Source: Cyanobium usitatum str. Tous
GTDB lineage: Bacteria; Cyanobacteriota; Cyanobacteriia; PCC-6307; Cyanobiaceae
NCBI RefSeq assembly: GCF_963920485.1
Contig: NZ_OY986431.1
Span: 1 to 64,000 of the forward strand
DNA length: 64,000 bases
Direction: 5' to 3'
The notes beneath the pieces were generated by a model, which saw only the letters and a program-made list of their open reading frames with translations, was not told the origin of the DNA and did not search any database. A program made the position numbers and the translations under genes. The number at the start of each line of letters is the position of its first letter. Position 1 is the stretch's first letter. Shown piece by piece: positions 32,346-38,277 of the stretch.

Positions 32346-32417
<72 letters not shown>

Positions 32418-35917: not shown

Positions 35918-35927
35918 GTGTGAGGAA
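35918..35927 (+). promoter_or_regulatory. Porin ribosome-binding region matching the Yfr1 sRNA target
   Basis: GTGTGAGGAA contains the Shine-Dalgarno GAGGAA, five bases before the porin ATG. Its first nine bases are the exact complement of the UCCUCACAC core of the cyanobacterial sRNA Yfr1. Yfr1 is known to bind porin mRNAs of Prochlorococcus at such sites and block translation. The match is direct sequence; regulation here is inferred. Confidence 0.75.
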
Positions 35928-35932
35928 CACCC

Positions 35933-37399
35933 ATGAAACTCTTCCAGCAACTGCTGGTTGCTCCTGCAGCTCTTGGTCTGCTGGCCCCCGTGGCCGCTAC
36001 CGCAGCTGAGTTCAACCTGGATGGCGTCAACAAGTACGCCTCCGAGGAGCAAGTCACCAGCATTTCCCAGTTTTCCGACGTCAAGCCCACCGACTGGGCC
36101 TACCAAGCCCTCTCCAACCTGATCGAGCGCTACGGCTGCGTGGCTGGTTATCCCGATGGCACCTACAAGGGTGGCAAGGCGATGACCCGCTTTGAAGCTG
36201 CTGCCCTGCTCAACGCCTGTCTCGACCGCGTCACCGACTTGACCGACGAGCTCAAGAGGCTGATGGCCGAGTTCGAGAAGGAACTCGCCATCCTCAAGGG
36301 TCGTGTGGATGGCCTCGAGGCCAAAGTGGGCGAACTGGAAGCTAACCAGTTCTCCACAACCACCAAGCTGAAAGGTATCGCCACCATGGTGCTCGGCGGT
36401 GCATCCAACACCGGCTTCGGTGAAAACGTCACGATGAACTATGACGTTCGCCTGAACCTCGACACCAGCTTCACCGGTAAGGACCTGCTGCGTACCACCC
36501 TGCGCTCCGGTAACTTTGCCAACTCGGTGTTTGGTAATGGCAACACCGCCATGGAAGTGGCTTTCCAGGAAGATCAAACTGGTGCGCCTGGAGTTGATAC
36601 CGTCGGCATCAACCGCCTCTTCTATCAGTTCCCGATTGGTGAAAACCTGACCGCCACCTTCGGCGCCAAGGTCCGCCAGGATGACATGCTGGCCATGTGG
36701 CCCAGCGCCTACCCGTCTGATTCGGTCCTCGACCTGTTCACCTACGGCGGTGCCCGCGGCACCTACCTGCTCAACCTGGGCGCTGGTGTCGGTCTCTGGT
36801 ATGAGAAGGATGGATTCAGCATCAGTGCCAACTATGTCTCCGGCGAAGCAGCGTCTGAGAGCTCCTCAATTGGTGTTGGCGAAAACCTGACTGCCACCGT
36901 GCAGGCTGGCTATGCGGCCGAAAACTGGGGTGCTGCCCTTGCATACACCTACGCTGATTTCGGCACATTTGCTGGTTTCAACGGTGATACCTTCAACAGC
37001 ATCGGCCTCAGTGCCTACTGGAGCCCGATTACCGCGGCCTGGTTCCCTTCGATCAGTACTGGCTTCGGCTTCTCGGCCCAAGGCGATCCCTTCGCTAGTG
37101 CTGATTCCGACACTTGGAGCTGGATGGTTGGCCTCCAGTGGGCTGATGTAGGCATGAAGGGCAATGCTCTTGGCATGGCCCTCGGCAGTGCCGGTTCAGC
37201 TGGCAAGGGCGAATGTGCAGATACTATCTGTACTGGTGGCCTCTGGCTCGAGGATGGTGAAGACACTCTCGCCTACGAACTCTGGTACAAGTTCCAGGTC
37301 ACCGACAACATCAGTGTGACGCCTGCCTTCTTCTGGGTTGGCAACAACGGTGCTGACGACACCTACGGCGCCTTGGTTAAGACCACCTTCAAGTTCTGA
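35933..37399 (+). CDS. Major outer-membrane porin (SOM/OprB type) with SLH domain
   Basis: A 488-residue cyanobacterial porin. It has a signal peptide (about residues 1-24, MKLFQQLLVAPAALGLLAPV, cleavage near AAEF) and one SLH domain (FSDVKPTDWAYQALSNLIER through YPDGTYKGGKAMTRFEAAAL). A coiled coil (about 95-135, DELKRLMAEFEKELAILKGR) crosses the periplasm, and a C-terminal beta-barrel ends in aromatic strands with terminal Phe (LVKTTFKF). Such Som proteins pass small solutes and ions and tie the outer membrane to peptidoglycan. The 5' UTR has a Yfr1-type site and the 3' UTR a complementary hairpin loop. Codon usage suggests high expression. Confidence 0.94.
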   Translation: MKLFQQLLVAPAALGLLAPVAATAAEFNLDGVNKYASEEQVTSISQFSDVKPTDWAYQALSNLIERYGCVAGYPDGTYKGGKAMTRFEAAALLNACLDRVTDLTDELKRLMAEFEKELAILKGRVDGLEAKVGELEANQFSTTTKLKGIATMVLGGASNTGFGENVTMNYDVRLNLDTSFTGKDLLRTTLRSGNFANSVFGNGNTAMEVAFQEDQTGAPGVDTVGINRLFYQFPIGENLTATFGAKVRQDDMLAMWPSAYPSDSVLDLFTYGGARGTYLLNLGAGVGLWYEKDGFSISANYVSGEAASESSSIGVGENLTATVQAGYAAENWGAALAYTYADFGTFAGFNGDTFNSIGLSAYWSPITAAWFPSISTGFGFSAQGDPFASADSDTWSWMVGLQWADVGMKGNALGMALGSAGSAGKGECADTICTGGLWLEDGEDTLAYELWYKFQVTDNISVTPAFFWVGNNGADDTYGALVKTTFKF

Positions 37400-37414
37400 T
37401 CCTTAGAACAAAAC

Positions 37415-37444
37415 AGGGCCGGTTCCTCACACATTTCCGGTCCT
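37415..37444 (+). other. 3'-UTR hairpin of the porin presenting TTCCTCACAC in its loop
   Basis: AGGGCCGG (37415-37422) pairs with CCGGTCCT (37437-37444), 8 bp with one G-T, leaving a 14-base loop 37423-37436. Loop bases 37423-37432 (TTCCTCACAC) are the exact reverse complement of the porin's own ribosome-binding region at 35918-35927 and contain the Yfr1 core motif. A CU-rich single strand and the intrinsic terminator follow, so a released 3' fragment would resemble a Yfr1-type sRNA. Confidence 0.7.
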
Positions 37445-37476
37445 TTCTCCTCCACTTCTCAACACACCCCTCGATC

Positions 37477-37502
37477 AACCCCGGCTCACGCCGGGGTTTT
37501 TT
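37477..37502 (+). terminator. Intrinsic terminator of the porin gene
   Basis: CCCCGGC (37479-37485) pairs with GCCGGGG (37490-37496) around a TCAC loop, flanked by AA/TT, then six T. It lies about 80 bp after the porin stop, leaving a 3' UTR that contains the hairpin at 37415-37444. Confidence 0.95.
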
Positions 37503-37590
37503 GTTGGGCAGCAACAAGCGATATTGGCTGGCAGCGCGGCCTGAGTTCCTAAAATCATCAGCAAATTCCTTTGCCTGCGGAGGCTGAGCC

Positions 37591-38277
37591 CTGGCTGCTG
37601 CTGAACCCACTGCCGATCCCTATCGCGTGCTGGGTGTTTCACCCACTGCCAGCGGCGCTGAAATCAAGGCCGCTTACCGGGCTCTGGTGAAGCAGCACCA
37701 CCCGGATGCCGGCGGTGATGACCGCACAATCCTGGCTCTAAACGCTGCCTGGGAGGTATTGCGTGACGCCGATCGCCGCCGCCGCCACGACCTCACAGCG
37801 CCCAGCTCTTTAGATCCTGCTGGCGCCAGCTTTTCCGTGAAGCGGGCAAGGGCCCAGTCGACGCGCAGCGCCGCCACTGATGCCGTTTTGCAGCAGTGGT
37901 TGCAGCAGGTGTATGGGCCGATTGATCGGCTGTTAGCTCAGGTGATCAACCCATTTCCAGCCCAGCTCAAGGCCCTTTCCGCCGACCCCTACGACGACAC
38001 CTTGATGGAGTCATTCTGCGCCTTTCTTGAGCAGGGCCAGGCCCGCCTAGACAAGGTCGAATTGATCTACCGCTCCCAGATATGTCCACCAGGAGGACAA
38101 GCATTTGCCCTCGATCTTTATCACTGCCTCAGCTTGGTGAAAGATGCTTTAACTGAGCTGGAGCGCTACACCATGGGCTACGTGGATTCATATCTGCATG
38201 ACGGTAGGGAGCTGCTAAAGCAAGCTCGCCTGCGCCGTCAGGACTTGCAGTCCCAGCGGCGGGAGTTAGGGATTTGA
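37591..38277 (+). CDS. J-domain protein with probable CTG start
   Basis: A protein of about 228 residues with an N-terminal J domain: DPYRVLGVSPTASGAEIKAA, HPD in VKQHHPDAGGDD, and LNAAWEVLRDADRRRRHD. The C-terminal half is helical and cyanobacteria-specific; it probably works as a DnaK co-chaperone. The first canonical start (GTG 37627) would delete the conserved DPYR. The only start upstream before a stop at 37585 is CTG at 37591 (giving MAAAEPTADPYR), with GGAGG at 37579-37583 exactly 7 bases before it. I therefore annotate CTG. It is convergent with ndhO. Confidence 0.82.
   Translation: MAAAEPTADPYRVLGVSPTASGAEIKAAYRALVKQHHPDAGGDDRTILALNAAWEVLRDADRRRRHDLTAPSSLDPAGASFSVKRARAQSTRSAATDAVLQQWLQQVYGPIDRLLAQVINPFPAQLKALSADPYDDTLMESFCAFLEQGQARLDKVELIYRSQICPPGGQAFALDLYHCLSLVKDALTELERYTMGYVDSYLHDGRELLKQARLRRQDLQSQRRELGI

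Follow-up and report, generated by a model that had tools for sequence, protein, structure and literature searches.

A conserved 3′-UTR element with a Yfr1-type core on porin mRNAs of Cyanobium and its relatives, and its possible role as a Yfr10-like feedback module

The DNA analysed here (the window; 64,000 nucleotides) was taken from the 2.66 Mb, single-contig genome of Cyanobium usitatum str. Tous, which encodes four porins, the window porin and three others. The porin gene of the window and the parts of its ends are listed in Table 1. The element studied lies between the stop codon and the terminator of the porin mRNA, which is the placement expected of a 3′-UTR-derived sRNA. In the predicted fold of 37380-37520 an 8-bp hairpin stem and a 9-bp terminator stem were obtained (z -5.1), and none of 200 shuffles was equally stable. 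The hairpin had been described in a first-pass annotation of the same DNA; its stem (37415-37422/37437-37444) was upheld, and its loop, which had been given as 37423-37432 alone, was extended to 14 nt (37423-37436). The CU-rich stretch described there lies on the 3′ side of the hairpin, and the terminator was borne out by the fold and by a terminator scan (37477-37498). Inverted repeats close to the porin stop codon and resembling the small hairpin at 37393-37409 were seen by eye in some relatives. Elsewhere in the window, a tRNA gene (32346-32417, minus strand) was the sole Rfam match at gathering score.

Table 1. Porin gene of the window and the sequence parts at its 5′ and 3′ ends (window positions).
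Feature	Position	Strand	Basis or remark
Porin gene, SLH domain and OprB-type barrel, 488 aa	35933-37399	+	ORF; Pfam OprB 7.2e-17, SLH 2.5e-10
Porin Shine-Dalgarno region, GTGTGAGGAA	35918-35927	+	Core GTGTGAGG complementary to Yfr1 motif, recurs in relatives
Small hairpin spanning the porin stop codon, GTTCTGATCCTTAGAAC	37393-37409	+	Fold
Loop-presenting hairpin, 5′ arm, AGGGCCGG	37415-37422	+	Fold; compensatory changes
Hairpin loop, 14 nt, TTCCTCACACATTT	37423-37436	+	Yfr1-type core CCTCACAC at 37425-37432
Loop-presenting hairpin, 3′ arm, CCGGTCCT	37437-37444	+	Fold; compensatory changes
CU-rich linker	37445-37476	+	Part 37451-37470 can pair with Cyano-1/Yfr2 5′ arm (predicted)
Intrinsic terminator, 9-bp stem 37477-37498 and T run	37477-37503	+	Fold; terminator scan

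The exact 10-nt complementarity between the loop (TTCCTCACAC, 37423-37432) and the Shine-Dalgarno region of the same porin (GTGTGAGGAA, 35918-35927) was confirmed letter by letter; by sequence comparison, the element is complementary to its own transcript at the translation start, as autoregulatory 3′ UTRs are. The probability of a chance match had been put at about 1 in 10,000, which was too small a figure: when the 76 nt that follow the porin stop codon were shuffled 20,000 times with dinucleotides preserved, the 10-mer arose in 0.35%, the 8-mer CCTCACAC in 2.6% and CCTCAC in 20%. That estimate was too optimistic because the UTR is CU-rich, and the lone match is therefore less striking than first claimed. 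The part that recurs in relatives is an 8-nt core (CCUCACAC/GUGUGAGG); the two extra pairs of the window 10-mer are not general. As judged from the sequences compared, it is conservation, and not the single 10-nt match, that raises the complementarity of loop and Shine-Dalgarno region above chance. The predicted net binding to the porin 5′ region was -12.6 kcal/mol for the 3′ UTR and -12.6 kcal/mol for Yfr1; part of the 5′ site is predicted to be folded, at an opening cost of 4 kcal/mol.

Porins were collected from 79 loci of genome contigs and from further genomes. Thirteen non-redundant porins were at least 70% identical to the query: ten of them carried the exact core CCTCACAC, two had a single core change that still pairs as G-U, and one (the second porin in locus L008) was without the core. 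The outcome named beforehand as speaking against the element, a stem that is kept while the loop is not, was the reverse of what was found: the stem varies and the loop core stays in relatives.

A covariance model (R1) was built from 9 hairpins, picked for equal length and seeded with the motif, and 300 whole genomes of the family were searched with it (E <= 0.05). Matches were obtained in 27 genomes from 5 of 59 genera and, within the genus, in 14 of 16 genomes; in the genome of the window, the window copy was the sole match. With one exception (L139, not at a porin), the 30 matches sit 25-68 nt past a porin stop codon (29/30), among them L121, which follows a truncated porin frame. For the pair counts alignment A5 was used; A3 and A4, which included chance matches, and the first MAFFT alignment (A1), in which stems were shifted, were kept out of the counts. 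Over 26 distinct rows, 98.6% of the stem cells are paired, double changes occur in 7 of 8 pairs, and the stem covariation (0.635, compared with 0.214 in shuffles) was reached by 0/500 shuffles. A separate hairpin list, for which the filters were less strict than in the 300-genome search, contains the exact core in 33 of 37 hairpins on 25 different 5′ arms, a count that is biased upward since the motif, together with a few variants, served as the search query. Because model and alignment were motif-seeded, the conservation of the loop is better judged from the 13 relatives and from a shuffle test: CCTCACAC was found in the first 80 nt of the 3′ UTR in 38 of 123 porins with a 5′ site, and the shuffled expectation for the same porins was a mean of 1.4 and a maximum of 8 (200 rounds).

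The predicted unpaired probability of the motif averaged 0.88 over 67 rows (0.68 with shuffled flanks) and 0.96 in the 36 rows of hairpin type; the predicted value fell below 0.5 in 5 of the 67 rows. Covariation between loop and 5′ site is uninformative: the two cores hardly vary, and the bases beside the core do not track the site. These comparisons support a conserved 3′-UTR RNA element with a Yfr1-type core that occurs, in the genomes searched, almost only on porins.

The motif also occurs away from such hairpins. One paralogous porin of the window genome (692457-694034) has the 5′ site GGTGTGAGGAC (core GTGTGAGG) and, in its 3′ UTR, ACTCCTCACC, which contains ACTCCTCAC and is without a stem; in other porins, CCCTCACAA stands between a stop-proximal inverted repeat and the terminator. 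On this sequence evidence, the recurring unit is the motif and not one particular hairpin. In L035, L036, L037 and L068, a TGATCC-TTCA-GGATCA inverted repeat lies right at the porin stop codon and is followed by CCCTCACAA. A second copy of the motif, degenerate or exact (CTTCTCAAC, CCTCACA), was often seen in the linker (window 37445-37476, L028, L032, L134, L154, L161), and a porin 3′ UTR outside the main group (L300, genome G039) holds two near-copies, CTTCTCACAC and TTTTCACAC.

For the link between 5′ site and 3′ motif, 211 of 261 genes were retained after removal of duplicates and of short or masked 3′ UTRs, and 186 of these 211 after removal of unreadable 5′ regions and short frames. A GTGAGG located 6-19 nt ahead of an in-frame start codon was counted as a 5′ site. 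At the 123 sites called in the 211-gene set, GTGTGAGG was read 113 times; of the 186 porins with a readable 5′ end, 116 have a GTGAGG-type site, with GTGTGAGG in 107. The 3′ motif CCTCAC (RNA CCUCAC) is present in 54 of the 116 porins with the site and in 0 of the 70 without it, eight rows with the motif and no called site having been dropped from the 186 set (seven start at a sequence edge, and the second frame of L037 is short, 268 aa). By form of the site, the motif was counted in 53 of 107 porins with GUGUGAGG and in 1 of 9 with another GUGAGG site. Among the 88 rows without a called 5′ site, CCTCACAC was found in 8, as against 0.2 in shuffles.

This association is partly clade-level. When relatedness was allowed for, it was not significant: about 2 independent pairs were informative, and these pointed in the expected direction. 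On a quick FastTree tree, parsimony gave as a rough count at least 24 changes of the 3′ motif, and 23 when only site-bearing rows were considered. Fourteen small-genome relatives contributed 30 porins, which were screened with a looser definition of the 5′ site and for a 3′ motif within 150 nt: the site was present in 20 of the 30 and the motif in 1, and 19 of the 20 site-bearing porins are without the motif. The lone porin of these 30 with CCTCAC in its 3′ UTR (CCCCTCACATTT) is that of L311 (G054). Their genome size and base composition suggest that the 14 relatives resemble marine picocyanobacteria. From these distributions we infer that the 5′ site is the older of the two and that the 3′ element was added to it in part of the family. 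Site-bearing porins are often without the motif (62 of 116) and the element was found in only 5 of the 59 genera searched; it is therefore not needed for porin control. One group of porins (L003, L106, L107, L113) has TTGTGAGGAGT before the start and no 3′ motif. Within the genus, GTGTGAGG before ATG recurs between genomes in two forms (GGAA...CCATG and GGACCCGATG); most of these matches coincide with porin starts, and the few that were unmatched to a gene appeared sporadic by eye.

Small RNAs that share the motif or can pair with it are encoded in the same genomes. Yfr1 (RF01116) was located at 1625139-1625195 of the window genome (61.3 bits) and in 16 of 16 genomes of the genus, and Cyano-1 RNA (RF01701), a motif said to mark the Yfr2 family (PMC8400943), was found in the window genome with 51.8 bits and in 15 of the 16. 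The window element resembles Yfr1 in its core motif and in the kind of porin target; it is a separate locus, and in the Rfam search of the window it scored below the gathering score of RF01116. The genome holds ten exact matches to GTGTGAGGA on both strands, and those identified are two porin sites, the reverse of the loop, the reverse of Yfr1 and one in Cyano-1. Near 218774 (G000:C1; L268:1490-1525), GTGTGAGGA is flanked by inverted repeats (GGGAGCA...TGCTCCC) and lies ahead of a putative GTG start; an Rfam search at this locus gave no match, and the sequence may be a further target of Yfr1 or an RNA directed against Yfr1.

The Yfr1/Yfr10 motif has CCUCACAC as its core, and in the window element these 8 nt lie in a predicted single-stranded loop on a stem, as described for Yfr10 and other Yfr1-motif sRNAs, with which the element also shares little other conservation and no fixed synteny (PMC6778093; PMC2518516). 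The full Yfr10-like motif ACUCCUCACAC was found neither in the window loop, which reads UUCCUCACAC, nor in the paralog (ACUCCUCACC). The Yfr10-type RNAs are described in these papers as sRNAs (MED4 Yfr10 beside Yfr2, with a common precursor), whereas the window element is situated in a porin 3′ UTR.

The reading we prefer, which in our judgement is evenly poised between right and wrong, is that the 3′ end is a Yfr10-like module that acts on porin ribosome-binding sites and gives negative feedback. It builds on the observed sequence, predicted structure, conservation, placement on porins, matching 5′ sites and the Yfr1 and Yfr2 genes, and the release, binding, repression and direction of effect that we infer would be as follows. 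The 3′ end of the porin mRNA would present the core in the hairpin loop between stop codon and terminator, and the loop would pair with GUGUGAGG ribosome-binding sites, both on its own mRNA and on the mRNA of the paralogous porin that shares this site. The element might be active either after cleavage, as a free short RNA, or as an uncleaved part of the mRNA. Pairing would lower porin synthesis, in addition to the repression of porins by Yfr1, for which a lowering of a PMM1121 5′UTR-GFP fusion is reported (PMC6778093), and the feedback would be negative because the element is made together with the porin mRNA. Yfr2/Cyano-1 is able to pair with this motif too and would modulate the 3′ element as well as Yfr1. 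A plus-strand scan of 37150-37600 gave no sigma-70-like promoter ahead of the hairpin, and a site at 37528-37555 is downstream of the terminator; putative release of a short RNA would therefore need cleavage.

The close rival, absent from the first-pass annotation, is a Yfr2 (Cyano-1) binding module, in which loop and linker would sequester Yfr2 and so free Yfr1/Yfr10; such a sponge, similar in logic to SroC, would also give feedback. It is a close rival because the loop fits Cyano-1 nearly as well as the porin site and the linker fits it better, and Yfr2 is reported to pair with Yfr1/Yfr10 and to block both (PMC6778093). Over 30 loops, the longest perfect run averaged 8.8 nt when a loop was paired with its own 5′ site and 8.4 nt when it was paired with the Cyano-1 of the window genome, the own-site run being longer in 11 loops, equal in 18 and shorter in 1; this slight preference for the own site weighs against the sponge. 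The linker part 37451-37470 was predicted to pair with the 5′ arm of the genome's Cyano-1 at -28.8 kcal/mol, a value equalled or bettered by 13 of 500 dinucleotide shuffles. Each of 37 linkers was compared with 100 shuffles of itself: 22 reached the top 10% for Cyano-1 and 5 for the porin site, although the Cyano-1 and the site of the window genome were used throughout and the linkers are related, not independent. Against each genome's own Cyano-1 (8 genomes) the result was mixed: 5 of 8 linkers paired better than with the arms of the others, these five having a GGGG-type Cyano-1 arm, and two paired weakly (-13.2 and -14.3 kcal/mol). The presence of Cyano-1 in nearly all genomes of the genus and a second motif-like stretch in the linker of many UTRs would suit a sponge, which, on the other hand, would have no need to sit only on porins with a GUGUGAGG site. 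Yfr2 sequestration, the strongest of the rivals, we regard as possible but less likely than the Yfr10-like module; both may hold.

A purely cis-acting element, in which the mRNA folds back so that the 3′ loop covers its own ribosome-binding site and no free RNA is formed, would account for an exact 10-nt match inside one mRNA and for the predicted net pairing of -12.6 kcal/mol, a value computed as two strands. Some 1.5 kb separate the loop from its partner, early translation would escape a 3′ end that is transcribed last, and the use of the same core by the paralog and by Yfr1 suggests action in trans; we consider this reading improbable. Slightly more improbable still is that the loop serves as a signal for protein binding or stability, its match to the ribosome-binding site being a by-product. 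A near-invariant loop on a variable stem, as in the window-type hairpins, is usual for protein sites too. The loop, however, holds the core of the Yfr1 motif, pairing is retained through G-U in two close loop variants, and other porins carry the motif without a hairpin. That an ordinary 3′-UTR hairpin matches the site by chance, as the CU-rich UTR and the 2.6% of shuffles with the 8-mer might suggest, is barely credible; this reading was rejected in view of conservation across genomes, the excess over shuffles, the stem covariation and the loop core kept on changing stems.

Several components of the preferred reading, the Yfr10-like module, are already known: autoregulatory 3′-UTR sRNAs (PMC7398697), the cyanobacterial ApcZ (PMC8136909) and additional Yfr1-motif sRNAs (PMC6778093) have been described. 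In OppZ and CarZ of Vibrio cholerae, the 3′ UTR base-pairs with its own transcript and inhibits translation, as proposed here for the porin element, to which they are not homologous; for them, processing by RNase E and repression have been reported (PMC7398697), and both would be expected for the porin element. ApcZ of Synechocystis is likewise derived from a 3′ end, but has its promoter inside apcC and OCP as its target (PMC8136909), whereas no promoter-like site was found for the porin element. SroC, a 3′-derived sponge of GcvB (PMC9438474), follows the same logic as Yfr2 sequestration with different RNAs and no homology. Yfr21 of Prochlorococcus MED4 is a candidate RNA listed on one strand between PMED4_12671 and the porin-type PMM1121 (PMC2518516); according to that source it was undetected by Northern blot and is without homologues in the table, and it is compared here by its table entry alone. 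In the open-licence literature, as far as its accessible text extends, no description of the Yfr1 motif in porin 3′ UTRs was found.

The element is well supported by the sequence comparisons; the mechanism is a proposal. For the picocyanobacteria around Cyanobium, we suggest, with somewhat less than even confidence, that porin mRNAs carry their own 3′-UTR Yfr1-type module on many stems, and may in this way encode part of their own repression and also bind Yfr2. Yfr1 is reported to occur in nearly all cyanobacteria, with almost constant expression, and its modulation has been posed as an open question (PMC6974561). With a copy of the Yfr1 motif made in step with porin mRNA, the target itself would feed directly into that modulation. 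It would be a case of a small-RNA seed inside the 3′ UTR of its own target and, if true, would make the porin mRNA an mRNA-borne third partner of the Yfr1/Yfr2 circuit.
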